A stretch of DNA of 43,417 nucleotides. Origin: Archaeoglobi archaeon JdFR-42 (GTDB lineage: Archaea; Halobacteriota; Archaeoglobi; Archaeoglobales; JdFR-42). The DNA lies in the NCBI GenBank assembly GCA_002010305.1, contig MTND01000039.1:1-43417 (forward strand), in the 5' to 3' direction. Position numbers and translations under genes: made by a program. Positions 2,246 to 29,911 of the stretch are shown one piece after another (positions within the stretch are counted from its first letter, which is position 1; every line of letters starts with the position of its first letter). The notes under the pieces are model-generated. The model did not search any database. It was not told the DNA's origin and saw only the letters and a program-made list of their open reading frames with translations.

Positions 2246-2944
2246 GTGAAAAAGAGGAATCAGGATGGAATTGTGAGTCAGGAGAGATATTTGAGACTTG
2301 TGGAAAAGACTAGGCTATTTGGGACAAGTCAGGGAGATGTGTATGAGATCAAGATATGCAGAAACTCATGTCCTATGATTCTATCCGATTTATCCAGATT
2401 TCAGGACAGGATTCTAGATATTCTAGAAAAACATGATTTCGAGTCATGGGTTCGGAGGAATGTGAAGAACTATTTTCTTGCCCATAATCGTTTTAAAATT
2501 TCAATAGCAGGATGTCCCAATGCATGTACCGAACCACAGATCAAGGACATCGGGGTCATATTGAGAGCGAAACCCTTCTATAATGGAGATTGTAATCAGT
2601 GTAGACTATGTGAAAAAACCTGTCGGGAAAACGCGATAGTTATATCAGATTATCCTGAATTTGATTATGGTCGCTGTGTTGCATGTGGAGCGTGTGAACG
2701 GGTATGCAAGCAGAATGCCATAACTACAGAGAAATATTTCGATGTGTACATTGGAGGAAAACTTGGAAGACATCCTCAATTTGCTCTCTATGTAGAATCT
2801 TTTAAAGATGAGAGAGAAGTTCTCAGAATCATAGAAGCAATTGTAGGGCTGGTCAAGGAATACAACAAAACCAGAATTGGTGAATTTGTTAACGAGGAAA
2901 ATATTGGCAAAATCAGGAACTGTATTCTTAACGAAGTGAAATAA
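2246..2944 (+). CDS. Small sulfite-reductase-like protein with two [4Fe-4S] ferredoxin clusters
   Basis: The 232-residue protein has three parts. An N-terminal segment carries C38 and C42 (CRNSC). The middle ends in the nitrite/sulfite reductase-type motif GCPNACTEP (C90, C94). The C-terminal part is a double ferredoxin with C116, C119, C122, C126 and C144, C147, C150, C154. This layout resembles the small dissimilatory sulfite reductase-like proteins (Dsr-LP) of methanogens and relatives, which are thought to bind sirohaem and an adjacent cluster. The first cysteine pair is spaced CX3C, whereas sulfite reductases usually have CX5C, so sirohaem ligation may differ. The start is GTG, chosen because GGAGG lies 6 bp before it. 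argJ begins 21 bp downstream, so the two are probably co-transcribed. The substrate is unknown. Confidence 0.75.
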   Translation: MKKRNQDGIVSQERYLRLVEKTRLFGTSQGDVYEIKICRNSCPMILSDLSRFQDRILDILEKHDFESWVRRNVKNYFLAHNRFKISIAGCPNACTEPQIKDIGVILRAKPFYNGDCNQCRLCEKTCRENAIVISDYPEFDYGRCVACGACERVCKQNAITTEKYFDVYIGGKLGRHPQFALYVESFKDEREVLRIIEAIVGLVKEYNKTRIGEFVNEENIGKIRNCILNEVK

Positions 2945-2965: not shown

Positions 2966-4159
2966 ATGGACTCTCTTTTTATGGTTGAACTGACAGTTCA
3001 TCATGATAACATTCCAGAGATAGAGGCTCTTGTTGCAGGCGGAGCAAAATCTGGAAAGTATGGACTGGCTGTATTCAAAATCTCAGGTAGTGCAGCAGCA
3101 GTATACACTACAAATAAGGTGAAAGCTGCTCCCCTTATAGTCACAAAAAAGAATCTCAAAGAGGGAAAGATCGAAGGTATAATCGCTAACAGTGGAAACG
3201 CCAATGCCTTTACAGGTAAAAAGGGGTTGCAGGATGCAAAAGAGATGGCAGGATTGTTGGCCGATAGACTTGGAATTAATCCGGGAAGAGTAGCTGTAGC
3301 GTCTACAGGAGTGATAGGCAGGTATCTTGATATGGACAGGATAACCTCACTGGTTGATAATGTCTGTGGTAATCTGAAAAGAGGTAATGCTGGGCTTGTT
3401 GATGCAGCAAAGGCCATTATGACCACCGACACTTTTCCCAAAGTGATTGGTATCTCTGGTAGGGATCTGAGAGTTGTGGGGGTTGCCAAGGGAGCAGGTA
3501 TGATCGCACCTAGTATGGCAACTATGCTTGGGTTCATCTTTACCAATGCAACATTTAAACCTTCAGAGCTAAGGGCTATGTTGAGAAAGAGTGTAGATAA
3601 GAGCTTTAATATGGTTGTGGTAGATGGAGATACCAGTACTAATGATATGGTGATTCTTACAGCATCAAACGAGGTTGAAATTGATAAAAGGATATTTCAA
3701 AGGGCTTTAGATGCAGCATGCATAGAACTTGCGAAAATGATCGCCAGGGATGGAGAAGGTTCGACTAAATGTATTGAGGTAAGAGTAGCAGGAGCACGAA
3801 GTTTCAATGACGCCAGGAGAGTTGCAAAAGCCATAGTATCTTCAAATCTGGTGAAATCTGCTATATATGGGGCGGATCCGAACTGGGGCAGAGTGGTTGC
3901 AGCCATAGGATATGCAAGAGCTAGATTCGATCTGGAAAGGCTGTCAGTTACCTTCGGTTTTGATGACAACGAAGTTACTATGGTAATGAATGGAGAGATC
4001 GCTGGAGAAGAACAGTTAAAAAGGGCAAGTGAGCTGATGAAAGAGAATAAGAAAGTTACCATTATAGTAAATCTTGGGGTTGGAAACAGATCAGCAGTGG
4101 CATGGGGATGTGATTTAACTCCAGAATATGTGCGAATAAATTCTGAATATACTACCTGA
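2966..4159 (+). CDS. argJ: Glutamate N-acetyltransferase / ornithine acetyltransferase ArgJ
   Basis: ArgJ moves the acetyl group from N-acetylornithine to glutamate in the cyclic arginine pathway; bifunctional members also use acetyl-CoA. The 397-residue protein shows the self-cleavage site in KGAGMIAPSMATML: the precursor is cut between A185 and T186, and T186 becomes the nucleophile at the new N terminus of the beta chain. Other family segments are NSGNANAFTG (about 75-84), STGVIG, MTTDTFPK, DGDTSTND and YGADPNWGR. ATG 2966 is used; an in-frame ATG at 2981 is an alternative because the N terminus is variable. A hairpin lies just past the stop. No other arginine gene is adjacent. Confidence 0.95.
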   Translation: MDSLFMVELTVHHDNIPEIEALVAGGAKSGKYGLAVFKISGSAAAVYTTNKVKAAPLIVTKKNLKEGKIEGIIANSGNANAFTGKKGLQDAKEMAGLLADRLGINPGRVAVASTGVIGRYLDMDRITSLVDNVCGNLKRGNAGLVDAAKAIMTTDTFPKVIGISGRDLRVVGVAKGAGMIAPSMATMLGFIFTNATFKPSELRAMLRKSVDKSFNMVVVDGDTSTNDMVILTASNEVEIDKRIFQRALDAACIELAKMIARDGEGSTKCIEVRVAGARSFNDARRVAKAIVSSNLVKSAIYGADPNWGRVVAAIGYARARFDLERLSVTFGFDDNEVTMVMNGEIAGEEQLKRASELMKENKKVTIIVNLGVGNRSAVAWGCDLTPEYVRINSEYTT

Positions 4160-4491: not shown

Positions 4492-6552
4492 TCATATTTT
4501 CTTAACTCTGCATGGGATACCTCTGTACATGGGAGCTCCGGTGAGAGGCTCAAACCGCATATCATCGGTAATGAGATTAGCATTGCATTCTACCCATCCG
4601 TGAGGTATTGATACAGTAAATGGATGCATGTCCTGCTTGATAGTAGCTTTCATCTCGATACTTCCTGTATGGGTTTCTATTGTGATGGTATCTCTATCTG
4701 AAAGCCTGATATGGCGAGCTATCCCCCCTCCAACCTCTGCAACGGGATCAGGATTCAATCTCCTCAATCTCTCTATATTCCTGAACTGAGAATGGTAATA
4801 TGCCTGAGTCCTAGCTCCAGTAATCAGAAGGTAGGGATAATCATCAGATTCGGCTGGATGACTAACTGGTTCTGGTATATCCATCCCATAGGATTTCAGG
4901 ATGGAAGAAACCAGCTCTATTCTGCCAGAAGGGGTGTTGAACCCTCTATCCCTGAAGTATCCTGGGTGTATCTCTTCCACCAGTACGCCTTTTTCCAGTT
5001 CTTCAAGGGAATACCTTTCGACCTCACTTCCTCTGAGCAATTCCATCAGTATCTCATCTTCTGACTGAAAGTTGAAGTACTCTTCATATCCCATCCTCGC
5101 TCCGAGCATGCTCATGAATTCTGCCTCTGATTTAGAGTCCTGAAGAGGTTCAACAATTCTCCTTCTAACCCTTATCCATCTCAGTTTTTTCAGAGGAACC
5201 GCATCGATTTCAGCCTTCTCGTAAAAGGTACTTGCCGGCAGCACTAGATCAGCAAAATTGCATGTTTCCGTCAGAAATATATCATGCACAGCTATAAATT
5301 CCAGCTTTTTCATAGCTTTTACGAATTTATGAGTGTTTGGGAGAGTTAATACAGGATTGGATTTGAACACTATCATGGCCTTTATCGGATATGGTTTTTC
5401 TGAAAGTATGACTTCAGACAGATATCCACTGCAATCCAAGGCAAGGGGGAATTTCTCTCCCCAGAATGGCTTTTTACCATCTGGCAGCATTTCCCTCAAA
5501 GTGATGTCTTTCAGTGTTATGGATGGATTGAAGATTAGACCACCTTTAACGTCTACATTGCCAGTCAGAGCCATCAGGATAGCGATAGCTCTGGCAGTCT
5601 GTAGTCCGTTGACACTGTGAAGGATCCCTTCACGCCTGTCTATGGATGCTGGTCTGGATTCTACAAACAGTTCTGTAACTTCTCTGATCAAACTGGCAGG
5701 TATGTCTGTCCTTTTTTCAACCCTGTCAAGATCGTATCCATTGATCCTGCTAGCCAGCTCCTCAAATCCTGTTGTATATCTTTCCACAAAATCATGGTCA
5801 TACAGATCGTTCTCGATGATATACTGTATCATTCCCAAGGCCAGATATATGTCTGAATTGGGTCTGATTTTTAGATGATAGTCTGCAACTCTTGCTGTTT
5901 CAGATTTTCTTGGATCTACAACAACAACAGGTGCACCTCTCTTCTTTGCAGTCATTATGTCCTCAACTACACCATGATATCTATGGATCTTAGATACAGC
6001 AGGGTTGGTACCCCAGAGCATGATGAAGTTAGCATTGACAAAATCACATGTTGGATAGAGAGGCGTTCCGAAAGTGGCCATGTAACCTAGAACTTTAGGG
6101 CCGACACAATAAGACCAGCTACCAGTAACGTTAGGAGTACCATACAAATTGGCAAATCTCTTCACCATGCTTCTGTCGACGATTCTCCCCGTAGGACCGT
6201 GGAGAAACACAAGAGACTCTGGCCCATATTTTTCTCTTAATTCTTTCAGGTTTCTTTTTATTATCTCAAGGGCTCTATCCCAGTCTATCTTTTCCCATTC
6301 AGGTGCACCTCTCTCTCCGACATTCAGGAGGGGTGTTGTAAGCCTGTCTTTATGATACAGGATTTCTAGGGAATTCTTGCCTTTAACACATAACTTTCCC
6401 CTGTTATTGGGGTTCTCTTTATCTCCTTCCACCCTCACAATTTTTCCGTTCTCTATATAGGCTATGATGCCACAATCACATTTACAGATCTGACACATGG
6501 TTCTTCTTATTTTCACACTCTCTTTTGATTCTACTTCCAATTCCCTTTTCAA
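4492..6552 (-). CDS. Molybdopterin (Mo/W-bisPGD) oxidoreductase family protein
   Basis: This 686-residue protein belongs to the complex iron-sulfur molybdoenzyme catalytic subunits. An N-terminal [4Fe-4S] site is formed by C20, C23, C27 and C55 (CVKG), with one extra Cys at 25. Three bisPGD domains follow: the LYGTPNVTGSWSYC region puts C149 at the expected metal-ligand position; NFIMLWGTNPA and VVVDPRKSETA are cofactor-binding loops; LPASTFYEKA and the C-terminal PSGRIELVS and HGWVECNANLI segments complete the fold. It lacks a Tat signal and is probably cytosolic. No electron-transfer subunit is next to it. It starts with TTG, 6 bp after a perfect GGAGGT, and is 1 bp from the stop of the upstream methyltransferase gene, so the two form an operon. 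The substrate cannot be read; the thiosulfate reductase/acetylene hydratase-like branch is a guess. Confidence 0.88.
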   Translation of the reverse strand: MKRELEVESKESVKIRRTMCQICKCDCGIIAYIENGKIVRVEGDKENPNNRGKLCVKGKNSLEILYHKDRLTTPLLNVGERGAPEWEKIDWDRALEIIKRNLKELREKYGPESLVFLHGPTGRIVDRSMVKRFANLYGTPNVTGSWSYCVGPKVLGYMATFGTPLYPTCDFVNANFIMLWGTNPAVSKIHRYHGVVEDIMTAKKRGAPVVVVDPRKSETARVADYHLKIRPNSDIYLALGMIQYIIENDLYDHDFVERYTTGFEELASRINGYDLDRVEKRTDIPASLIREVTELFVESRPASIDRREGILHSVNGLQTARAIAILMALTGNVDVKGGLIFNPSITLKDITLREMLPDGKKPFWGEKFPLALDCSGYLSEVILSEKPYPIKAMIVFKSNPVLTLPNTHKFVKAMKKLEFIAVHDIFLTETCNFADLVLPASTFYEKAEIDAVPLKKLRWIRVRRRIVEPLQDSKSEAEFMSMLGARMGYEEYFNFQSEDEILMELLRGSEVERYSLEELEKGVLVEEIHPGYFRDRGFNTPSGRIELVSSILKSYGMDIPEPVSHPAESDDYPYLLITGARTQAYYHSQFRNIERLRRLNPDPVAEVGGGIARHIRLSDRDTITIETHTGSIEMKATIKQDMHPFTVSIPHGWVECNANLITDDMRFEPLTGAPMYRGIPCRVKKI

Positions 6553-6553
6553 T

Positions 6554-7540
6554 TCACAACCTCCAGGATTTCGCTACTGCCACCATGACCTTCAGGTTCT
6601 CCACAGGTGACTCTGGTGGAACACCACATCCGGGCATCAGTATAAAATTATCTGGCCCTCCATCCTGAATCGCCTGTATCGATTCCTCTTTTACCTTTTC
6701 TGGAGAACCAAACATCAGAGTATCGATCGGATTTATATTTCCACCTATGGTGACTTCTTTCATTACGGATCTGGCCTCTCTCAGACTAATCTTCTGATCG
6801 AGACTGTATGCGCTTCCCATGAGATCAGGCATGTATCTCCAGATTTTTCTGGTATCTCCACACATGTGGATAATCACAGGGATATGTTTTCTGGTGTGCT
6901 GAACGAGTTTTCTAAGATAAGGGAAAGAGAAGTGTTTAGCATGCTGGGGAGAGATCATATCTGGAGTGGAAGAAGGGTCAGGGATATACAGCAAATCAGC
7001 TCCACTTTCCACAACTCTGTCTGTGAAGTTAATAAGAGCTCGAAGGATCATTTTAAGGGCTTTTTTAATCGTATCAGGATCACGATACATGGCCACGAGA
7101 AGAGCTTCTGCATCGAAAATCCTGGTAGCAGTAGTAAAAGGACCCTCAAAGAGCGCCATCACAGGTTTACTAGATTGTTCTGATGCATACTGTATGGCAT
7201 CCAGTATCACTTTGACACTTTCAGTTTCATTGAAATCAGGAAGGGAAAGCTTATCATTTATGGAGAGGGTTTTCTGTATTACCGGTCCAAAACGGGTGAA
7301 TTTAATCTGACATCCAAAAGCCTCAGGGATGTAATTGGCATCATAGTATACTGAAACTGCATCAGCATCAATCTTCTTTTGAAAGTTTATTTGGGCACTG
7401 GCCAGTTTCTTGCCATCTGATCTGATATTCTGAGGTGACTCTCCAGAATACTTAATGGCTATGGATCCTGTGGGGATAAGTACAGGGACCCTGTCTGGTG
7501 GTTCTTTTTCCAAGACCTGTAGGAGAGGGTTTATTCGCAT
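6554..7540 (-). CDS. MtaA/CmuA-like (UroD-fold) methyltransferase
   Basis: The 328-residue protein is of the uroporphyrinogen decarboxylase superfamily, in the branch of methylcobamide:coenzyme M methyltransferases. The zinc-binding pattern is visible: HMCGD (His and Cys two apart, about residues 225-227) and a later Cys in LMPGCGVPPESP (about 304). These match the His-X-Cys...Cys set of MtaA/MtbA, and true decarboxylases lack them. The family moves a methyl group between a corrinoid and a thiol. The start is taken at ATG 7540; a TTG three bases upstream is less likely. It is the first gene of an operon with the Mo/W oxidoreductase. No corrinoid protein gene is adjacent. A palindromic TATA box lies about 45 bp upstream. 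Confidence 0.85.
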   Translation of the reverse strand: MRINPLLQVLEKEPPDRVPVLIPTGSIAIKYSGESPQNIRSDGKKLASAQINFQKKIDADAVSVYYDANYIPEAFGCQIKFTRFGPVIQKTLSINDKLSLPDFNETESVKVILDAIQYASEQSSKPVMALFEGPFTTATRIFDAEALLVAMYRDPDTIKKALKMILRALINFTDRVVESGADLLYIPDPSSTPDMISPQHAKHFSFPYLRKLVQHTRKHIPVIIHMCGDTRKIWRYMPDLMGSAYSLDQKISLREARSVMKEVTIGGNINPIDTLMFGSPEKVKEESIQAIQDGGPDNFILMPGCGVPPESPVENLKVMVAVAKSWRL

Positions 7541-7578
7541 CAATTATCACAACTTTCAGATTAATCTCTCACAGACAT

Positions 7579-7592
7579 TTATTTATAAATAA
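7579..7592 (-). promoter_or_regulatory. Palindromic box A before the methyltransferase/Mo-enzyme operon
   Basis: TTATTTATAAATAA is a perfect 14-bp palindrome centred 45 bp before ATG 7540. In the minus direction this would give a leader of about 18 bases. It is far from the plus-strand gene at 7798, which has its own candidate box. Confidence 0.5.
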
Positions 7593-7992: not shown

Positions 7993-8028
7993 AGTGCGAT
8001 AAAAAATATGTAACGGTGGATGAAACTC

Positions 8029-8463
8029 ATGATGAGACCACCATATCTTATCCTTATTGTTGTAATCTTATATGCATCTATACCGGTAGTTGCAGCCGGT
8101 GATCTCAGTATAGATGAGATGGTAGTCACGTATGACACTACCGGTATTACTTTGAAAATAACCTATGGGCTGAGTGGCCTTGATAAATTTTACATGATAT
8201 TTATTGGTGCGGATTCCGTAAAAGAGAAACTTCAGAACCTGTTCAGCGGGTTTGATGATATAGAGTTCATAGCCATCAACGACTCAGTGGCTGTAATCCG
8301 CCTGAATAACTGCATATCCGTAATCAACTCGTCATATGTTTTTACAGGTTATAATCTTGAAGAAAATGTTGGGAACATAACTCTTAAGTTCCCCAATGGC
8401 CTTTCTATAGATTACACAGATACAGACAGGATCCCTCCTGCTACATTCAGACTTGGTTACTGA
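8029..8463 (+). CDS. Small exported protein of unknown function
   Basis: The protein is 144 residues long from ATG 8029. This start was chosen because GGTGG at 8015-8019 directly abuts the earlier ATG 8020 but is 9 bp from this one. The N terminus is a clear signal peptide: MMRPPYLILIVVILYASIPVVAAG, with likely cleavage after VAA. The mature part is beta-rich with several N-x-S/T sequons (NDS, NSS, NIT) and no cysteine pair or known domain. I do not recognise the family. Its stop lies 17 bp inside the end of the oppositely oriented cDPG synthetase gene. It probably shares a transcript with the zinc-ribbon membrane protein. Confidence 0.7.
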   Translation: MMRPPYLILIVVILYASIPVVAAGDLSIDEMVVTYDTTGITLKITYGLSGLDKFYMIFIGADSVKEKLQNLFSGFDDIEFIAINDSVAVIRLNNCISVINSSYVFTGYNLEENVGNITLKFPNGLSIDYTDTDRIPPATFRLGY

Positions 8464-9787
8464 ATCTTTTCTCGGCTAGGTTTATTACATGTTTTATTGC
8501 TGATGTGAGGTCTGAAAAGTCCCCTTCAACCAGTTCTGGCTGATTGTCCATATATACCACTCTCTTATTGTGGGATAAGGCATACTCGGTAACCACATCT
8601 ACTGCAGCTCCTTTTAACTCAGTAATCACTGTGGTCGCTTTTTCTACATCTCTTCTGAGATCTTTCAGTAATAGTGGTCTGTTGGACAGATGTTCACTGG
8701 CACCAACTACTTGGCAGTCCCACTGACTCTCAAGGTGGGGGATTATGATTTCATCTAGTATATTCTGGCTTGCTGTAGATGCAACAAAGATTCTTTCTCC
8801 ATCGATGGATTCTACAGGTTTGGGTCTGAATACCGTGTAAACCTTAGGCACATCGGTAATCTCATTGAGAAGGCTTTTGATGACCTCTCTTTCCTCCTCC
8901 GGTATTAGGGAGTATTCCCACATGGTCACAAAAATAAGATCTGCCATCTTCAATCGGAAAGGACCGAAATACCTGTCAAAATACCATGTGGGCGAAAGAC
9001 CTCCGACGACTGTGATATATGAATCAGCTCTGACAGGTGGAATTGCTGCTCCGCTGCCTTCCACAAGAACATGGCTACAATCTAGGTTATTCACCACTTC
9101 AGCTCCTGCCAGAACATTGGAATATCCAACTTTTCCAGCCAGTCCCCCTCCACATCTCCGGCAACCCACTGTGGTAATCCTGGAAACCAGTGCATCTTCC
9201 CAGTGATCTGAAGCGGCATGTTTACCGCTGTGAGCTTCTTCCAGCAATTTCTGAGGGGTAAGATTGATATCTGTTATGACCTCAGGTTCAGGAGGCCCTC
9301 CACGACCCATAGTCAAGACAACTGGTTCAAGCCCTATCTCTTTTATTCTCCTTGCAATAAATGCTGATGCAGCCGTTTTCCCCACTCTTTTTCCTGTACC
9401 TATGATTCCCACAGAAGGTTTTCTCAAAATCTTGACGAGGTTAAGGGGTTTAAAATGGAAATCAGATCCAAGGTATTCTATATCCCGAGATATGAGCTCG
9501 CATGCCAGTCGAAAACGTATCTCGTAATCTACTACAGGTTCATCGCTGAGGTCGATGGCTACATCGGGTCCAAATCTGTCGAGGGCTTCATGGATGTTTT
9601 TCTCTTTATCTCCAAATACTACAGGAAGGTTAAGAACCCTTTCAACATCTTCTATCTGTCCTATTTTTTCTGTACCGCCCAGAAAATATACGCCAGATAT
9701 GTTGTATTTTTCAGAAAGAGCTTCTATGGCAGCTTTAGTAACTGGGAGGTAGTGTTCACCATCCACCAGAACGAGAGCTCTCTTCAT
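8447..9787 (-). CDS. cpgS: Cyclic 2,3-diphosphoglycerate synthetase
   Basis: The enzyme closes 2,3-diphosphoglycerate into cyclic 2,3-diphosphoglycerate (cDPG) using ATP; cDPG is an archaeal solute and phosphate store in methanogens. The 446-residue protein begins MKRALVLVDGEHYLPVT, as known cDPG synthetases do. It has a P-loop GTGKRVGKT at about 131-139, then MGRGGPPEPEV (about 160-170) and the cysteine-bearing TTVGCRRCGGG segment. Length fits the family. It diverges from 2-phosphoglycerate kinase, the preceding enzyme of the path, across about 90 bp. GGTGAGGAG sits directly before the ATG. This is a confident call. Confidence 0.93.
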   Translation of the reverse strand: MKRALVLVDGEHYLPVTKAAIEALSEKYNISGVYFLGGTEKIGQIEDVERVLNLPVVFGDKEKNIHEALDRFGPDVAIDLSDEPVVDYEIRFRLACELISRDIEYLGSDFHFKPLNLVKILRKPSVGIIGTGKRVGKTAASAFIARRIKEIGLEPVVLTMGRGGPPEPEVITDINLTPQKLLEEAHSGKHAASDHWEDALVSRITTVGCRRCGGGLAGKVGYSNVLAGAEVVNNLDCSHVLVEGSGAAIPPVRADSYITVVGGLSPTWYFDRYFGPFRLKMADLIFVTMWEYSLIPEEEREVIKSLLNEITDVPKVYTVFRPKPVESIDGERIFVASTASQNILDEIIIPHLESQWDCQVVGASEHLSNRPLLLKDLRRDVEKATTVITELKGAAVDVVTEYALSHNKRVVYMDNQPELVEGDFSDLTSAIKHVINLAEKRFSNQV

Positions 9788-9850
9788 CTCCTCACCCTAA
9801 AGGTTTTATTTTATGGAAAGGATTTACAGATGGGCAAAATTAAGAAGCAA

Positions 9851-9860
9851 TTAATATAAA
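9851..9860 (+). promoter_or_regulatory. Candidate box A for 2-phosphoglycerate kinase
   Basis: TTAATATAAA is centred about 24 bp before ATG 9879 and only 14 bp before the alternative GTG 9870. It favours 9879 as the start of a leaderless message. Confidence 0.45.
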
Positions 9861-9878
9861 ACCTTGCTGGTGTTGGAC

Positions 9879-10790
9879 ATGGAGAGAGATATTCTCGTGG
9901 AAAAGGAAGAATATACCATGCCGTATTCCAGGGGAATCCTTGCCAATTCTCTGACAAGAGCTGGAATGGATCATGATGAAGCATACAGATTAGCCCAATC
10001 CATTAAAAATCAGTTAATAGATGAAAAGAAGTATGTTATTCATGCTGATGAGCTCAAAGAAATAGTCTATTCCAGAATTAAAAAATTTGATGAAAATGTC
10101 GCCAAAAGATATTTTTTCTGGGAATTTACTTATCGACGGAGACATCCAATAATAATCCTTATCGGTGGAGCTTCAGGAGTTGGCAGTTCGACTCTTGCCT
10201 TTACGGTAGCTCAATGGTTAGGAATCAGCAATGTCATAGGAACCGACATCTTAAGGGAAGTATTGCGGAAAGTGATATCCAAAGAACTCATTCCTGCAAT
10301 TCATAAATCAAGCTTTAATGCATGGCAGGCCATGAAGGTAGCACCGAGAGAATATGACAGGGTCATTTACGGATTTGTCAATCAAGTGTCTCACATATCA
10401 GTGGCCATTGAAGCAGTTCTCGATAGGGCAGTCAGGGAAGGTATAAATGTGGTTGTAGAGGGCACCCATATAGTTCCGGGCTACATAGATGAGAAATATC
10501 TGAAAAATAACTTCACTCACTGCTTTATCCTGAAACTGGAAGACGAGGAGATTCATAAGCAGAGATTCTTTGCACGGGCAAACGAAACTCAAACGAGACG
10601 ATCTGCAGAATACTACATCAGGCATTTTACCGCTATACGGAAAATTCATGATTTTATTGTGGATAATGCCATCAAGAATGAAATCCCGGTGTTTGAGAAC
10701 TTTAATTTCGAGAATACAGCAAGGTGTATAATGAGATACGTGATAGAGAAACAGTCTAGGTATGTAGAACAGGAGATGGAAGATAAATGA
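9879..10790 (+). CDS. pgk2: 2-Phosphoglycerate kinase
   Basis: This enzyme phosphorylates 2-phosphoglycerate to 2,3-diphosphoglycerate, the substrate of cDPG synthetase encoded across the divergent promoter. The N-terminal 90 residues resemble an ATP-cone (MPYSRGILANSL, AYRLAQSI, DELKEIVYSRI). The kinase domain follows with P-loop GGASGVGSST (about 96-105) and VIGTDILREV. A VVEGTHIVPGY segment (about 190-200) and an Arg-rich lid (ETQTRRSAEYY) complete the P-loop kinase pattern. ATG 9879 is chosen over TTG 9864 and GTG 9870 from the position of the TATA box. The stop overlaps the next gene by 4 bp. The protein has 303 residues, normal for the family. Confidence 0.92.
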   Translation: MERDILVEKEEYTMPYSRGILANSLTRAGMDHDEAYRLAQSIKNQLIDEKKYVIHADELKEIVYSRIKKFDENVAKRYFFWEFTYRRRHPIIILIGGASGVGSSTLAFTVAQWLGISNVIGTDILREVLRKVISKELIPAIHKSSFNAWQAMKVAPREYDRVIYGFVNQVSHISVAIEAVLDRAVREGINVVVEGTHIVPGYIDEKYLKNNFTHCFILKLEDEEIHKQRFFARANETQTRRSAEYYIRHFTAIRKIHDFIVDNAIKNEIPVFENFNFENTARCIMRYVIEKQSRYVEQEMEDK

Positions 10791-11533
10791 GGATAGTCCA
10801 CATATCAGATACCCACGTAGGAGCACCTGAATTCAGGAGTGAACTATTTACTGAATGCATAAAAGAAGTTAATGAGCTCTCGCCAGATTTTGTGGTTCAT
10901 ACAGGCGATTTGACCAATGATGGATACAGATATCAATTTGAGGATGCATATGATTTTCTTGACAAAATAGAAACTGAGATCTTTATAGTCCCGGGAAACC
11001 ATGATGCTAGGAATGTAGGATATCTGCATTTTGAAGAGATTTTTGGAGCGAGATATACGGTATTCAAAGATCGAGACCTGCTCCTCGTTGGTGTTGATAC
11101 CAGTGAACCAGATTTAGAAGATGGCCATCTTGGAAGGGAGAGGCAAATATGGTTGGAAAATGTTTTTAAAGGCTTTGATGGCTTTAAAATATTCCTCCTC
11201 CATCACCATCTTGTTTCAGTTCCGTTTTCTGGTAGAGAAAGGGGAGTTCTGTATGACGCTGGTGAAGTTCTCAAAATATTAACTGACTGCAATGTGGATT
11301 TGGTGTTATCGGGACATAAGCATGTCCCAAATGCCTGGAGACTGGAAAATATGTTCATTATAAATGCAGGTACTGCATCTTCACTGCGTCTCAGAGGGCT
11401 TATAACTCCCTGCTACAATATTATCGATATAGAGGAAGGAGAGATAAAAGCAACTCTGAAATTTGTTGGAGGAGCTCTCAGAGATCTGCTGGGTGATAGA
11501 GCCAGGATACGGGGTCTGGGACTTCAATATTGA
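10787..11533 (+). CDS. Calcineurin-like metallophosphoesterase
   Basis: The 248-residue protein carries all metal-binding motifs of the superfamily: DTH at residues 8-10, GDLTND (about 41-46), GNHD (about 71-74), LLHHH (about 143-147) and GHKH (about 176-179). It lacks a signal peptide, so it is cytosolic. Its ATG overlaps the stop of the 2-phosphoglycerate kinase gene (ATGA), which implies translational coupling. Given that context, hydrolysis of cDPG, 2,3-DPG or another phosphate ester is a reasonable guess, but family members also act on cyclic nucleotides and DNA. The substrate is not shown by the sequence. Confidence 0.88.
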   Translation: MRIVHISDTHVGAPEFRSELFTECIKEVNELSPDFVVHTGDLTNDGYRYQFEDAYDFLDKIETEIFIVPGNHDARNVGYLHFEEIFGARYTVFKDRDLLLVGVDTSEPDLEDGHLGRERQIWLENVFKGFDGFKIFLLHHHLVSVPFSGRERGVLYDAGEVLKILTDCNVDLVLSGHKHVPNAWRLENMFIINAGTASSLRLRGLITPCYNIIDIEEGEIKATLKFVGGALRDLLGDRARIRGLGLQY

Positions 11534-11643
11534 GAGTGCATGAGTGGTTGATATGTATAGGGCTATGTGAATCAGAACAGACCCGTTCTTTTCAGCATAA
11601 TGATATCTGTTAACTGATGAGATAGCTGGAAAAAACGCTTAGG

Positions 11644-11651
11644 TTTTATAC
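11644..11651 (+). promoter_or_regulatory. Box A of the purSLQ operon
   Basis: TTTTATAC is centred 28 bp before ATG 11676 but only 7 bp before the in-frame ATG 11655. It therefore supports the downstream codon as the start of a leaderless purS message. Confidence 0.5.
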
Positions 11652-11675
11652 AAAATGTCCTTATTGAATCATGAT

Positions 11676-11915
11676 ATGATAGCTCATGTGTATATCGAAC
11701 TGAAAAAGGGTGTTGCTGATCCAGAAGGAGAGAACACCAAGAAAGCGCTCCAGTTGCTGGGTTTTGATGGTGTAAGGGACGTCAGAACCATAAAGGTGTT
11801 CAGAATAGAGCTTGATGAACTGGATGAAGATCAGGGGAAGAGAAAGGTGGAAGAGATGTGTGAGAAACTCCTTGCTAACCCTGTGATACATAATTACAGA
11901 ATCGAGATAGGGTGA
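11676..11915 (+). CDS. purS: Phosphoribosylformylglycinamidine synthase subunit PurS
   Basis: PurS is the small subunit that bridges PurL and PurQ and helps ammonia channelling in step 4 of purine synthesis. The 79-residue protein starts [18 protein letters not shown] and has the family segments [10 protein letters not shown] and [12 protein letters not shown]. The start at 11676 is chosen instead of 11655 because the TATA box position fits it and because known PurS proteins begin at this point. The stop TGA overlaps the PurL start codon by one base. The order purS-purL-purQ is the classic small-PurL arrangement. Confidence 0.93.
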
Positions 11916-14266
11916 TGGAGTTGGATCCATCCGTTTATATCTCCAGAAATTTACCTTTTGAACTGTATGAAGTTGATATCCTCAATGCTTCTGATGAGCA
12001 ACTGGCTGTTATCAGCGATGAAATGGGTCTGGCCCTGAGTGTAGATGAGATGAGACGCATTAAGGAATATTTCAGGCAAAAGGGCAGAAATCCAACTGAC
12101 ATCGAGTTACAGGCCCTTGGTCAGGCGTGGAGTGAGCATTGCTGCTATAAAAGCTCCAAATATTTCCTGAAAAAATATCTTTTTGGGATTGAAGCCCCTC
12201 AGAATATCTTCGTTATTGAAGAGGATGCTGGCGTGGTAGAGTTTGATGAAGAACATGCTTATGTTGTGGCTTTAGAGTCCCATAACCATCCTTCAGCCAT
12301 AGAGCCATATGGAGGAGCTGCGACAGGTATTGGGGGTATCCTGAGAGATGTTGTGTGTATGGGTGCTCAGCCTGTAGCCCTTGTAGACCCCCTTTTCTTT
12401 GGACACCTTGACACACCATACGAGGCTTTACCCTCTGGTGTTAAACACCCTTTGTATCTGATGAATGGTGTTGTAGCCGGTATAAGAGATTATGGCAACC
12501 GTGTTGGCATCCCGACTGTTGCAGGAATGATCTTTTTCGACGAGGGATATACGGGAAACTGTTTAGTGAACGTGGGGTGTGTGGGGATAGCCAAAAAGAA
12601 TCACCTCATTCGTAGCAGAGTAGGCGGAGTAGGAGATGTATTCGTCCTTGTGGGTGGTAAAACTGGAAGAGATGGGATACATGGAGTTACTTTTGCTTCA
12701 ACTGAGTTGGATGAGAAATCAGAAGAGGAGTCCAGGGGGGCTGTTCAGCTTGGAAATCCAATTGTAAAGGAACCACTAATTCATGCCTGTCTTGAAGCCA
12801 ACGAAAAGGGTCTGCTAACTGGAATGAAGGATCTAGGGGGTGGAGGTCTTTCGTGTGTCATTGGAGAGATGGCCCTTGCAGGCGGGTTTGGAGCAGAAGT
12901 CCATTTAGAGAGAGTACCTCTGAAGGAGAAGGAAATAAAACCCTGGGAGATCTGGGTTTCAGAATCTCAGGAACGAATGATGCTCTCTGTTAGACCGGAA
13001 AACGTGGATGAAGTACTGTATATATTTGATAAATGGGACGTGGATGCAACGGTGATTGGAAAGGTAATTGATGAAAAAATTCTGAGAGTGTTTTATCAGG
13101 GCTACAAGATTTATGAGATGGATATCGAGTTCGTTACATCTGGTCCGGAATACTGTCGCCCGTACACAGTGGAGAAGAGAGAGATACAGACCAGTGTATT
13201 TGATGTTCCCGAGCCTGAGGATTATGAGGATATTTTCAGATCTATTCTAGCGCATCCAAATGTTGCCTCCAAAGAATTTGCCATACGCCAGTATGATCAT
13301 GAAGTGAGAGCCTCCACAGTCCTGAAGCCCTTGAACGGAATAGCTGGGTGGGAAAGCCATGGTGATGCGGCGGTGATAAAGCCACTGGAAGACTCATGGA
13401 AGGGATTGGCCATTACATCTGATGTGAATCCAGCCTACACAAAAATAGATCCCTTCTGGGGAACTGCTGTAGCCTTCGATGAGATGTGCAGAAACCTAGT
13501 GGCGGTCAATTCTGTTCCACACAGTTTTGCAGACTGTCTGAATTTTGGAAATCCAGAAAAGCCATTGAGGCTGGGAGATTTTCATGAGAGTGTCAGGGCC
13601 CTCGGATGGATGGCTAGAAATCTTGGCATTCCATGTGTATCTGGAAATGTGAGTTTTTACAATGAGACTCCTTATTCCTTTGTTCCTCCAACCCCTACGT
13701 TGATGGGAGTTGGAATGGTAGAAGATGTGAGAAAAGTCATTTCCATGGATTTGAAAAGACGAGGAACCGCATTGATTCTGATTAATGAAACTAGACCAGA
13801 GTTTGGAGGCAGCGTATACTCTTCAGTGAGAGGATTTGAAGATTCTAATGTTCCAAAATCTAGTCCAGAACATCTCAGGAAGAGTATTGAGACCATGCTA
13901 TCTCTGTTTAGCAATTTTAGAATCTTATCCTGCCATGATGTTGCCGAGGGTGGAGTGGCTGTAGCCCTTGGAGAGATGTGTATAGGTGGCCATATGGGCT
14001 GTGAGGTTGAAATTCGTGCTGAAAGAGCTGATATTGCCCTGTTCTCCGAATCAGCAACACGATGGATCGTTGAAGTGAAAGAAGAGGATTACACGGATGT
14101 GGTGGAATTTCTCAGGAAATCAGGACTTAAAGCTGGAGTTCTTGGTTTTACTGGTGGTAAGGATATGATACTCAGAGGAGCAAAGACTACAAAACCTCTG
14201 ATATATATGAACATCGATGAGGTGGATACAACTTGGCGAAATGGACTGTCGAGGTATATGGGGTGA
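11915..14266 (+). CDS. purL: Phosphoribosylformylglycinamidine synthase subunit PurL
   Basis: PurL is the ATP-dependent synthetase subunit converting FGAR to FGAM with ammonia from PurQ. The 783-residue protein has [15 protein letters not shown] near residues 67-81, then [20 protein letters not shown] (about 121-140) with the substrate and Mg contacts. DLGGGGLS (about 306) and the second-half repeats ([33 protein letters not shown]) follow. It is somewhat longer than the usual small PurL, mostly from an N-terminal extension and inserts. ATG 11915 is used; GTG 11912 directly before it is in frame. It overlaps purS by one base and is followed closely by purQ. Confidence 0.95.
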
Positions 14267-25415: not shown

Positions 25416-26540
25416 ATGGTAGACCTAACGATCGAGTTTGCAGGTGTAGAATTTCCAAATCCTGTCTGGCTTGGTTCAGGAATGCCAGGCAGAAACGACG
25501 TACGATTGATTGATTTTGCGAAAGGTGGTGCAGGAGGTATTGTCACAAAAACCATCGTGCCTGATGGAACACCGTCTCCTAAACCGAGAATAGCTATGAC
25601 GGATTGTGGGATGCAGAACATTGAACTCTTTACCGGCCTCCCTCCTGATGTATGGTTTGGAAAATACCTGCCTGCATATAAAAAGGAAACCAATGTACCC
25701 CTCGTGGTAAGTGTTGCAGGCTCAAATACCGAAGAATTCGTTCTGATGGCTGAAAGGGCTGAGGAATTTGCTGATCTGATTGAGCTGAATTTTTCCTGTC
25801 CCCATTTTAAAGGAAGAGGGAGTGACATAGGACAGGTTCCTGAGCTGACTGAAGAGATAACTCGGGAGGTAAAGAAAGCGGTATCTGTGCCGGTTATGCC
25901 GAAACTCACACCCAACATAACCGATCCAAAAGTGATCGCTCAGGCAGCTCTGAAAGGGGGAGCAAACGCTCTTTCTGCTATCAACACCATAAAATGTATT
26001 ATTGGTATCGATATATATGAGGAAAAACCTATTCTTCCCGCCATCGGGGGCTATTCTGGAAAAGCTGTTAAGCCAATTGCTCTGAGGCATGTATATGAAA
26101 TAACCAATGCTGTGGATCTACCAGTATGTGGGATAGGTGGAATAGAAAGGTGGCAGGACGTAGTTGAGTTCTTCATGGTAGGGGCTCTCTCAACTCAGAT
26201 TTGTACTGGAGCTATGGTTCATGGGCCAAAGCTGTTCTCCAGAATAACGAAAGGTCTGGAAGGGTTTATGGATGAGAAGGGTTACGATACCATTAAGGAG
26301 ATGGTGGGAGTTGCCAAGAAGCATTTCTATGAATCCGCAAGTCTCATGCCAACTGAACCCACAGCTCAGCCTGTGATAACAGATAAATGTAACCTGTGTA
26401 AGAAATGTATTAGGGCGTGCTCCTACTATGCCATCTATGAGGGTGATAATCAGGCAATAGTGGATTATGAGAAATGTCATAGATGCGGTCTCTGCTATTA
26501 TGTATGCCCCATAGATGCAATAGAGTTGGAGAAGGTGTGA
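25416..26540 (+). CDS. preA: Dihydropyrimidine dehydrogenase PreA-type subunit
   Basis: The enzyme reduces uracil or thymine to the dihydro form. The 374-residue protein has an FMN-binding TIM barrel of the dihydroorotate dehydrogenase class, from PNPVWLGSGMPG (about 14-25) to GIGGIERWQD. The catalytic Cys is C128 in NFSCPH, as in mammalian DPD and bacterial PreA and unlike the Ser of many DHODs. A C-terminal double ferredoxin follows (CNLCKKCIRAC and CHRCGLCYYVC, about 325-367). No PreT-like NAD(P)H subunit is next to it, so ferredoxin or a distant partner must donate electrons. It is the first gene of a three-gene path operon; the next starts 3 bp after its stop. Confidence 0.9.
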   Translation: MVDLTIEFAGVEFPNPVWLGSGMPGRNDVRLIDFAKGGAGGIVTKTIVPDGTPSPKPRIAMTDCGMQNIELFTGLPPDVWFGKYLPAYKKETNVPLVVSVAGSNTEEFVLMAERAEEFADLIELNFSCPHFKGRGSDIGQVPELTEEITREVKKAVSVPVMPKLTPNITDPKVIAQAALKGGANALSAINTIKCIIGIDIYEEKPILPAIGGYSGKAVKPIALRHVYEITNAVDLPVCGIGGIERWQDVVEFFMVGALSTQICTGAMVHGPKLFSRITKGLEGFMDEKGYDTIKEMVGVAKKHFYESASLMPTEPTAQPVITDKCNLCKKCIRACSYYAIYEGDNQAIVDYEKCHRCGLCYYVCPIDAIELEKV

Positions 26541-26543
26541 GAG

Positions 26544-27902
26544 ATGGATCTTGTAGTAAATAATGGGAAGGTTGTAACTCCCCAGGGTGTTTTTCAGGCC
26601 AATATCGGTATAGAGGGAGAAAAGATTGCAACCATTTCTAAGTCTCCGCTGAAAGGAGATGAGGTAATAGACGTCAGTGGGAAACTGGTAATGCCTGGGG
26701 TTATTGATCCCCATGTCCACATGGAACTCCCTTTCGGTGGGACAGTTTCAGCCGATGATTTCAAAACAGGAACTATAGCAGGGGCTTTTGGTGGTGTGAC
26801 GACCATAATAGACTTTGCAATCCAACCTAAAGGAGAGAGTCCTTTTTCTGCTATTGAAGCCAGAAAGAAAGCAGCAGAAGGAAAGGTTGTGGTGGATTTT
26901 GCTCTCCACGCCTCTCTGACGGATATGGAGAAAGTGGAGGATGGAGATATCAGGAAGATTATAGAGATGGGCCTCCCCTCTTTTAAACTGTTCATGACTT
27001 ATCGAAAGGAAGGTCTGATGGTGGACGATGGAACTCTTTTCGCTCTTCTTCAGGAGACAGCCAGTTTGAAAGGTCTTGTGGGAGTGCATGCAGAAAATGC
27101 GGCTGTTCTGGAATATCTGATTGCAAAATTCCTCAGAGAGGGGAAAACTGAACCTAAATATCACGCTCTGAGCAGACCGAATTTTGTGGAAGGAGAATGT
27201 ATAAACAGAGCAATCACCCTTACCGAGGAGGCAAATTCCAGTCTGTATATATTTCATATGTCAACGAAAGAAGGACTGGAGGCAGTTAAGTCTGCAAAGA
27301 CGCGTGGAGTAAAGGTTTTGGCTGAAACCTGCCCTCATTATTTGATGCTCACGGATGAGAAATATGAAGAAAATGGGCAGCTATATGTCATGAGCCCTCC
27401 ACTCAGAAAACGGGAAGACAATGAGGCTCTGTGGCAGGGTGTTGTCAATGGTTGGATCGATGTGGTGAGCACTGATCACTGTCCCTTTCGAACAGACCAG
27501 AAGGCTATGGGAGACACTTTTGACAAGATACCCAATGGTGTACCTGGAATTGAAACCCTGTTGCCAGTGATGTTTTCTGAGGGATTAAAGAGAGGTATGC
27601 CCCTTGAACGTCTGGTAGAAGTGTTGAGCTACAATCCTGCAAGGATTTTTGGTCTTGAAAATAAAGGGGCCATTGAAGTCGGAAAAGACGCTGACCTCGT
27701 TATACTAGATCCCAGAGAAGAACGGACTCTTTCGTATGAGACTCTGCACATGAACTTGGACTACAGTATTTTTGAAGGTCTGAAGGTGAAAGGATATCCG
27801 GTTACCACCATCTCCAGAGGAGAGGTGATAGTAGATAACAATGAGTTCTATGGAAAGGAGGGTCGAGGTCGGTTTATTGAAAGAGTTTCGGGTGGATGGT
27901 AA
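26544..27902 (+). CDS. hydA: Dihydropyrimidinase (D-hydantoinase family)
   Basis: The enzyme opens the ring of 5,6-dihydrouracil to N-carbamoyl-beta-alanine. The 452-residue amidohydrolase has all metal ligands: H57 and H59 (DPHVH), the lysine to be carboxylated K148 (LPSFKLFMTY), H182 (GVHAEN), H238 (FHMSTKEG) and D311 (VSTDHCPF). The FKLFMTY and STDHCPF forms are characteristic of dihydropyrimidinases as opposed to dihydroorotases. It sits between the dehydrogenase and the amidase of the same path. Other cyclic imides or hydantoins are possible substrates. Confidence 0.92.
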   Translation: MDLVVNNGKVVTPQGVFQANIGIEGEKIATISKSPLKGDEVIDVSGKLVMPGVIDPHVHMELPFGGTVSADDFKTGTIAGAFGGVTTIIDFAIQPKGESPFSAIEARKKAAEGKVVVDFALHASLTDMEKVEDGDIRKIIEMGLPSFKLFMTYRKEGLMVDDGTLFALLQETASLKGLVGVHAENAAVLEYLIAKFLREGKTEPKYHALSRPNFVEGECINRAITLTEEANSSLYIFHMSTKEGLEAVKSAKTRGVKVLAETCPHYLMLTDEKYEENGQLYVMSPPLRKREDNEALWQGVVNGWIDVVSTDHCPFRTDQKAMGDTFDKIPNGVPGIETLLPVMFSEGLKRGMPLERLVEVLSYNPARIFGLENKGAIEVGKDADLVILDPREERTLSYETLHMNLDYSIFEGLKVKGYPVTTISRGEVIVDNNEFYGKEGRGRFIERVSGGW

Positions 27903-27929
27903 AGAAATGTAACAGGAGGAGGTATAGAA

Positions 27930-28772
27930 ATGGTTAAAATTGGACTTGTACAGATGAAGTGTGTTGAAGATAAACAGGCAAATGTGGACAAGGCTATTGA
28001 AAAAATAGGTGAAGCTGTGGATCAGGGAGCAAAGATTGTATGTCTACAGGAGCTGTTCAATGGGATATATTTCCCTCAGTATCTGGATAACAAGTTTTTC
28101 AGTCTGTATCCTGAACCTGTACCAGGTGGAGAAAGTATTGTAAAGATGCAGGAAGTGGCTGAAGAAAACAACATCGTACTGGTTGTTCCTGTTTGGGAAG
28201 AGGCAGAGAAAGGCGTGTATTACAATACTGCTGCCGTGATAGATGCCAATGGTGAGTACTTGGGTAAATACAGGAAAACCCATATCCCCCATCTGGCACA
28301 GTATCAGGAGAAGTATTATTTCACACCTGGGGATCTTGGATATCCAGTTTTTGAGACAAAATACGGGCGTGTTGGTATAGCTATCTGCTATGACAGGCAC
28401 TTCCCTGAGTGTTTCAGATCCCTAGCCCTTGGAGGAGCGGAAATCGTCTTTGTTCCAACTGCAACAGCAGGATGGACACGATACCTCTGGGATCTTGAAA
28501 TAAGAGGGCATGCTGTCGCAAACATGTTCTTTGTTGCAGGGTTGAACAGAGTAGGCCAAGAGGGTGACATGGAGTTTTATGGTTCAAGTTACATAGCCGA
28601 TCCTAAAGGTCAGTACGTGGAGGATAAACAAGCTAGCGATACCGAGGAAGAAGTGCTGGTAGTGGACTGTGACTTCGATCAGATTGCAGAAGTCAGAAAA
28701 ATGTGGCATTTCTTCAGAGATAGAAGACCAAGCATGTACAAGAAGATTTGCTCCTACCCAGCCCTTCCATAA
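27930..28772 (+). CDS. N-carbamoyl-beta-alanine amidohydrolase-like nitrilase
   Basis: The protein of 280 residues belongs to the nitrilase superfamily, with the full triad: E41 (LQELFNG), K116 (GKYRKTHIPH) and C153 (AICYDRHFPE). The GKYRKTHIPH and CYDRHFPE forms match the beta-ureidopropionase/N-carbamoylputrescine amidase group. In this operon the expected reaction is N-carbamoyl-beta-alanine to beta-alanine, CO2 and ammonia, which completes reductive pyrimidine breakdown. A strong SD site (AGGAGGAGG) lies upstream. Putrescine synthesis from carbamoylputrescine is the main alternative, but the two preceding genes favour the pyrimidine role. Confidence 0.9.
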   Translation: MVKIGLVQMKCVEDKQANVDKAIEKIGEAVDQGAKIVCLQELFNGIYFPQYLDNKFFSLYPEPVPGGESIVKMQEVAEENNIVLVVPVWEEAEKGVYYNTAAVIDANGEYLGKYRKTHIPHLAQYQEKYYFTPGDLGYPVFETKYGRVGIAICYDRHFPECFRSLALGGAEIVFVPTATAGWTRYLWDLEIRGHAVANMFFVAGLNRVGQEGDMEFYGSSYIADPKGQYVEDKQASDTEEEVLVVDCDFDQIAEVRKMWHFFRDRRPSMYKKICSYPALP

Positions 28773-28858: not shown

Positions 28859-29911
28859 CTATTTTAGCGATTCTACTGGAGCGTCATGAGCAGCCTGAGT
28901 GAAAGCTTTTATGTTTTCGTAAGGGACGGTTGCCGGGATATCGCAGCCTGGCATCAGAACGTAAGCCCCCCCTTCAAAGTACTGTTTTCCAGCGGTTTCA
29001 ATGGCTTTTTTAGCCTGATCATACACGGATTCTGGAGTTGCATCATGGAGTACCGTAACTGGATCCAGGTTCCCTCCCATGCATATTTTTCCCTTAAGTT
29101 TTTCTACTGCAAAAGCCAGATCTACTCTGTGATCTAGGCTAAACAGGTCGGCTCCACTCTCTGGCATGATTTCTAGTCTATCGGATGTATCTCCACAAAT
29201 ATGGAGAATGGTTTTTACACCCAGTTTGGAATAAGTTTCTGTCAAATTCTTAAGGTATGGTAGAGCAAATTCTTTAAAGTGTTTTGGAGAAACAAGATCT
29301 CCCGCTGCTGTGGGATCAGCGATACTCACACATTCCAGAATCCCCTCTTCGATCAACGGTTTATAAAATCTTTTTATGGCTTGGAGAGCAAATTCAATTA
29401 CTTTTCTTGCAAAATCCGGTTGTTTATACAGATCTATCAGTAATCTTTCCGCCCCCCTGAACTGACCGGCAAGAGTAAAGGGACCCCATTGAGTTGTGGC
29501 TACCAGATATGTGTCTCCTATTTTTTCGGCAACCATTCGGGTTGTTTTTCGTATCGAGTCGATAACTGGATATTCATCAATTTTATCAAGTTCGAGCAGA
29601 TCCAGGTCTTCTGGAGATGTTACGATGGGTCTGGCAAGTTCTGGAGCTGAATTCTTGGGATACTTCATCTCCCCTCCAAGAGCAGCGCCGGGATAGTTGT
29701 TGTAACCAGATCCAGGGTATACCACATCACTCCTCAACTTTTCGGCTATTTTTACCATAACGGCAGCATATTCTTCTGGATCCGTCTCGAAAGTCTGAAA
29801 GGTATTATTCGTGTTAAAAATGGTCCACATTCCTCCCCCAAAAAAGGCAACTGGAATCCTATCAGGGATATTGAGATCCATAGCCGCTAAAATAACGTCT
29901 TTTGGATTCAT
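28859..29911 (-). CDS. MtaA/CmuA-like (UroD-fold) methyltransferase, second copy
   Basis: The 350-residue protein is a second UroD-superfamily member with the methyltransferase zinc pattern: HICGD (about residues 239-243) and LMPGCDIPATVPYEN (Cys about 322). It shares the layout of the copy at 6554-7540 but differs in most residues. It keeps SLDHRVDL and GGNLDPV, where the other has SLDQKISL and GGNINPI. Methyl transfer between a corrinoid protein and a thiol is the family role. No corrinoid protein is nearby. An 8-bp inverted repeat covers its start codon. The transglutaminase-like gene lies 122 bp upstream on the same strand. The substrate is unknown. Confidence 0.85.
   Translation of the reverse strand: MNPKDVILAAMDLNIPDRIPVAFFGGGMWTIFNTNNTFQTFETDPEEYAAVMVKIAEKLRSDVVYPGSGYNNYPGAALGGEMKYPKNSAPELARPIVTSPEDLDLLELDKIDEYPVIDSIRKTTRMVAEKIGDTYLVATTQWGPFTLAGQFRGAERLLIDLYKQPDFARKVIEFALQAIKRFYKPLIEEGILECVSIADPTAAGDLVSPKHFKEFALPYLKNLTETYSKLGVKTILHICGDTSDRLEIMPESGADLFSLDHRVDLAFAVEKLKGKICMGGNLDPVTVLHDATPESVYDQAKKAIETAGKQYFEGGAYVLMPGCDIPATVPYENIKAFTQAAHDAPVESLK

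Follow-up and report, generated by a model that had tools for sequence, protein, structure and literature searches.

A divergent MtaA-like methyltransferase gene adjoining the gene of a lone molybdenum/tungsten enzyme in an Archaeoglobales archaeon

The question raised by this locus is whether an MtaA-like methyltransferase and a lone molybdenum/tungsten (Mo/W) enzyme, whose genes lie side by side, act in the same pathway. The earlier note on this DNA had suggested that the pair may link methyl-group or C1 oxidation to a cytosolic Mo/W enzyme and knew of no described pathway that uses just these two proteins; we found none either. ORF inspection of the window, i.e. the whole analysed stretch of 43,417 nucleotides, confirmed both ORFs of the pair at their reported positions, with the following features in and around them.

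Ends at 4159, plus strand: argJ, neighbour of the pair
4492-6552, minus strand: MopB, a lone bis-PGD Mo/W enzyme with an N-terminal [4Fe-4S] site, 686 aa, TTG start (Pfam)
6554-7540, minus strand: divergent UroD-fold methyltransferase of the MtaA/CmuA branch, 328 aa, ATG start (Pfam, NCBIfam, AF2/Foldseek)
6554-7543, minus strand: longer ORF version of the methyltransferase, 329 aa, TTG start one codon before the ATG
6559-6564, minus strand: GGAGGT, ribosome-binding site of the MopB gene, within the 3' end of the methyltransferase gene (sequence)
7581-7589, minus strand: TTTATAAAT, candidate archaeal TATA box, 41 nt ahead of the ATG of the methyltransferase gene (sequence scan)
8020-8463, plus strand: small neighbouring ORF with no Pfam match
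8447-9787, minus strand: next minus-strand gene, 0.9 kb from the pair, no Pfam match

On the minus strand the methyltransferase gene lies upstream and the MopB gene downstream, and A6553 is the only base between them, which bears out the 1-bp gap described before and supports a tight operon. The GGAGGT motif stands 6 nt ahead of the MopB TTG start. The methyltransferase start at the ATG (7540) is better supported than that at the TTG (7543) because the paralogue of the protein also begins there. The sequence TTTATAAAT was found at one site only in the window, and its core is palindromic and hence reported on both strands; because about one occurrence per window is expected by chance, its designation as a TATA box rests mainly on its position. 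The product of 8447-9787 is one that we take to resemble cyclic-2,3-diphosphoglycerate synthetase. Further away, a small protein of 232 aa, encoded at 2246-2944 (plus strand), combines two ferredoxin motifs with a nitrite/sulfite reductase 4Fe-4S domain. The two genes of the pair stand as a unit by themselves, and the candidate TATA box together with the internal GGAGGT suggests that this unit is a two-gene operon, whose genes would be co-transcribed and are likely to be co-expressed in this lineage.

The Pfam matches of the two proteins, URO-D for the methyltransferase (E 1.8e-69) and the bis-PGD family for MopB (E 1.8e-38), exclude chance. The AF2 model of the methyltransferase (pLDDT 93) matched MtaA 4ay7 best among PDB structures (Foldseek TM 0.92, E 1.7e-24), and the zinc ligands that had been recognised from its sequence, His225-Met-Cys227 and Cys305 (ATG numbering), aligned with the His-x-Cys...Cys pattern of MtaA 4ay7 and were invariant in 13 family members. 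The curated NCBIfam MtaA/CmuA models were also matched, but below every cut-off (NF004889, 213.8 bits vs 244; TIGR01463, 180.8 vs 235.4; NF040654, 178.4 vs 400), and in a small tree the protein had a 65% paralogue (C2:129795) as its one companion and fell outside an MtaA clade with 97/97 support. This paralogue from the same genome was the sole close relative found: no member of the subfamily was detected at E <= 1e-75 in other genomes among the 394 sampled in the phylum, and single- or two-sequence scans of genome contigs with the methyltransferase gave at best 25-29% identity and no close relatives. The gene at 6554-7540 thus encodes a divergent MtaA-like zinc methyltransferase, which is predicted to methylate a thiol.

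MopB contains all three domains of the bis-PGD family (Pfam Molybdop_Fe4S4, Molybdopterin and Molydop_binding), and its [4Fe-4S] ligands Cys20, Cys23, Cys27 and Cys55 were invariant in the alignment. Cys149 aligned with Sec140 of formate dehydrogenase H (FDH-H) and with the W ligand Cys141 of acetylene hydratase, in agreement with its proposed role as the likely metal ligand. The N terminus of MopB showed no Tat-like signal, and neither a corrinoid-protein gene nor an electron-transfer subunit gene was found beside the pair, in agreement with the earlier note, and its reading as a lone cytosolic enzyme is supported; the claim that no corrinoid protein is present was nevertheless true only locally, since such proteins are encoded elsewhere in the genome (twice on contig C2 and once each on C4 and C7). 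In a maximum likelihood tree, MopB and its orthologues from three other Archaeoglobales genomes formed a clade of their own (100/100), separate from formate dehydrogenases (FDHs), polysulfide reductase and the group containing acetylene hydratase; a fourth orthologue (G033), interrupted by stops, was left out. The clade has specific invariant motifs (QxCKCDCG, GSW[SA]YCVG and I-D-x-R-E-G) and invariant residues around the active site (Lys24-Cys25-Asp26, Trp146, Val150, Arg191-Tyr192, Asp305, Arg307 and Glu308), which point to a distinct reaction. The clade, with a predicted active site of neither the FDH nor the acetylene hydratase type, is the most solid new point of this analysis.

These data bear directly on the known enzymes that MopB might be. 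A formate dehydrogenase supplying or draining electrons for methyl metabolism would agree with TIGR01591 being the best NCBIfam match (372.6 bits) and with the presence of FdhD, the FDH sulfurtransferase, beside a same-family orthologue, but the score is far below the cut-off of 666.25 while the FDH of the same genome, at C16, reaches 699.4. Moreover, the catalytic His, present in the C16 control, is replaced by Val150, the Arg of the FDH-H segment NPVRGQNN is missing from the aligned FNPSITLKD, and the FDHs fall in a separate 100/100 clade, so the expectation that MopB would not cluster with them was borne out. His and Arg both have a role in the FDH active site (PMC10385643), and because both are missing and the cut-off is passed by the C16 enzyme and not by MopB, we excluded an FDH identity and consider this reading very improbable. 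That MopB is a lyase or hydratase of the acetylene hydratase kind, with no net redox change in its reaction, is hardly more probable. The closest PDB structure to MopB, by sequence (E 1.8e-85) and by fold (Foldseek TM 0.88), was indeed acetylene hydratase 2e7z, likewise a single-subunit enzyme lacking an export signal, whose Met-Cys-Ile-Gly segment is similar to Tyr-Cys-Val-Gly of MopB and whose W-ligating Cys141 corresponds to Cys149 of MopB. However, Asp13 of its FeS motif, which is essential and subfamily-specific (PMC12096430), is Lys24 in all four full-length members of the MopB clade, which excludes an acetylene hydratase identity, and the tree does not place MopB with that enzyme. A polysulfide or thiosulfate reductase was also rejected, given the lack of a Tat-like N terminus and of adjoining B/C subunit genes, a score of 331.4 against a cut-off of 694, and a different clade.

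Conservation of the adjacency had been set beforehand as a test of the link between the two proteins, and in the genomes covered it failed. Orthologues of MopB were present in four other genomes among the 394 of the phylum, and in all four the neighbours differ, so that the pair was found in one genome only. The closest orthologue, in a genome of the same family (G001), adjoins FdhD, that of G036 a radical SAM gene, and that of G044 a MazE-like gene followed by an SBF-family transporter; nothing is common to these neighbourhoods. An arsenic link through that transporter, which we assume could be ACR3, was dropped, as the MazE-like gene intervenes and the other orthologues have no transporter. 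In G033 (G033:C11:14001-34000, 9913-11947, minus strand) stops split the ORF into 402 and 274 aa, so this copy is either a pseudogene or an assembly error. Across 57 genomes of the order, the MtaA-like loci examined (part of the matches, each with only about 1.5 kb of flanking sequence) were never accompanied by MopB; what stood beside them was a corrinoid gene, MtmB or nothing telling. The methoxydotrophy (mto) genes of A. fulgidus include no MtaA-like/MopB pair (PMC8359953). As the pair was detected in this genome alone, there is no support for a conserved coupling to C1 oxidation; the evidence for coupling so far is one operon in one genome, and a dedicated link of methyl or C1 oxidation to the Mo/W enzyme is possible.

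The genome itself (2.15 Mb, 99.6% completeness) carries two McrA-type genes, at least four MtrH-type genes (two Pfam-confirmed and two recognised from sequence), 12 aldehyde ferredoxin oxidoreductase (AOR) genes, with the AOR of contig C5 confirmed among them, about 8 MopB genes, 2 dehalogenase-family genes and ten genes for URO-D-family proteins. None of these ten proteins resembles true HemE, the hemE scores seen being at most about 99 bits against a cut-off of 303. Several other URO-D genes adjoin corrinoid-protein, MtrH or MtmB genes, which implies that corrinoid partners exist in trans. For three of the ten, the immediate neighbour is a MopB gene, an AOR gene or one of the reductive-dehalogenase family, and a fourth belongs to the same operon as an AOR gene; apart from the pair, the loci concerned are these.

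G000:C2:119795-139794, 8720-10984, plus strand: reductive-dehalogenase-family gene and the 65% methyltransferase paralogue
G000:C35, 754-6028, plus strand: operon of MtrH, MtaA-like, tungsten-type AOR and DUF2193 genes
G000:C5, 3882-10008, minus strand: operon of MtaA-like, arginase-family, 4Fe-4S protein and AOR genes and an ORF with a MoaD-like start

A crude binomial P of about 1e-3 for three direct neighbours is only suggestive, because the test was chosen post hoc, once the data had been seen. On C2 the paralogue follows 3 nt behind the dehalogenase-family gene, whose product (426 aa, no Tat-like start) passes the TIGR02486 cut-off (209.8 bits vs 160.35) and has 74% orthologues in two other Archaeoglobales genomes, where they stand without a methyltransferase and adjoin fatty-acid (3-hydroxyacyl-CoA dehydrogenase) genes. 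An MtrH gene converges on the C2 pair, and about 2-4 kb upstream of it come paired genes for a corrinoid protein and a UroD protein; the C35 operon is followed by a luciferase-like ORF, and a second MtaA-like gene occurs there at 8117-9205. Within the window, a further MtaA/CmuA-like protein that has the zinc motif is encoded at 28862-29911 (minus strand), in convergent orientation to what look like pyrimidine-degradation genes (25416-28769); its 53-56% homologues in several Archaeoglobales genomes are often near another MtaA-like gene. Since both the MopB and the dehalogenase-like orthologues lack the methyltransferase elsewhere, the methyltransferase line seems to have become associated, within this lineage, with two distinct oxidoreductase genes of greater age.

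The explanation that we tentatively favour, at a little short of an even chance, is that the locus is a two-gene operon of an alkane- or methyl-metabolising Archaeoglobales archaeon whose products act on the same methylated or thioether substrate. The first protein would be a zinc-thiolate methyltransferase working like MtaA: its zinc would activate coenzyme M or a different small thiol for methyl transfer, in either direction, between this thiol and a corrinoid protein whose gene lies at another locus of the genome. The second would be a soluble single-subunit W/Mo enzyme, with the metal held by two pterins and Cys149 and with one [4Fe-4S] cluster, that acts on a small organic substrate in a low-potential redox reaction (or a hydration) and exchanges electrons with ferredoxin or a similar carrier. 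MopB would be the older Archaeoglobales enzyme, acting without the methyltransferase in other species; placing a duplicated methyltransferase gene ahead of it in this lineage would have led to co-expression, most likely for the catabolism of that shared substrate. The 1-nt gap, the internal GGAGGT, the TATA-like box, the zinc ligands and MtaA fold, Cys149, the FeS ligands and the clade motifs are in favour of this explanation, as are the corrinoid proteins, the MtrH copies and two mcrA genes (PMC6474303) and the UroD-family genes next to oxidoreductase genes or, in one case, within an AOR operon. Against it, the pair is confined to one genome, the closest same-family MopB orthologue adjoins FdhD, and neither protein passes a curated functional cut-off; a pathway shared by the two is therefore stated here as possible.

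It is also quite conceivable that the genes are neighbours by chance or convenience, the methyltransferase gene having been inserted upstream of MopB so that unrelated reactions share a transcript. The adjacency is not conserved, the paralogue likewise sits behind a gene whose orthologues do without it, and both partners look older than their pairing, but chance accounts less readily for the near-zero spacing in both pairs, the good ribosome site at MopB, and three of ten UroD-family genes directly adjoining rare redox genes. A role of MopB in place of a Ram-type activase, as the electron donor that reduces the Co(II) of a corrinoid protein again so that the methyltransferase can use it, would fit the pairing of the paralogue with another FeS-containing redox protein of the TIGR02486 family; this is improbable, however, as Ram activases are FeS/ATP enzymes and not bis-PGD enzymes, MopB orthologues persist without the methyltransferase, and no corrinoid gene is near the pair. 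The repeated methyltransferase-oxidoreductase pairing in one genome is the most intriguing lead, albeit only suggestive. At its boldest, and we judge this unlikely, the archaeon would repeatedly pair zinc methyltransferases of the UroD type with oxidoreductases of the Mo/W or FeS kind (MopB, the C2 dehalogenase-family protein, and the tungsten-type AORs of C35 and C5) in an undescribed arrangement in which thiol alkyl transfer and low-potential redox chemistry on the same substrate form one unit, the MopB clade being of a new catalytic type.

If confirmed, the novelty would be twofold: a clade of soluble W/Mo enzymes with an active site matching none of the characterised types compared, and an operon linking such an enzyme to methanogen-type methyl transfer in an archaeon with divergent methyl/alkyl-CoM reductases. 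The pair offers a testable candidate for the route by which such archaea bring unusual methylated substrates into their metabolism.

The McrA and MtrH content of the genome agrees with what has been published on Ca. Polytropus marinifundus, a member of the Archaeoglobi that has five copies of mtrH and two McrAs of divergent type (PMC6474303). The methyltransferase shares with MtaA of Methanosarcina mazei (4ay7) the UroD barrel, the zinc ligands, its length and 27% identity, and differs in its scores below the NCBIfam cut-offs and its position outside the MtaA clade. Unlike MtaA and the MtaA-like proteins (Mlps; PMC10418091), it adjoins a bis-PGD enzyme and not a corrinoid protein or a Ram gene, its neighbourhood holding one Mlp only and zero corrinoid genes. 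MopB resembles FDH alpha subunits (FDH-H 1aa6 and archaeal FDH 7bkb) in domain plan, Cys at the Sec position, FeS ligands and Lys57, and is linked to them by the FdhD gene beside one orthologue, but besides its residues, score and clade it differs in having no FdhB. PsrA/PhsA (2vpw) was its second-best PDB sequence match and also has a Cys ligand, although MopB has neither the Tat signal nor the B/C subunits, and differs again in score and clade. The best fold match, acetylene hydratase of Pelobacter acetylenicus (2e7z, 29% identity), has the same single-subunit, non-exported plan with a [4Fe-4S] cluster and a Cys metal ligand, whereas MopB stands in a separate clade with Lys24 for Asp13 and with conserved Trp146, Asp305, Arg307 and Glu308 that acetylene hydratase does not have.
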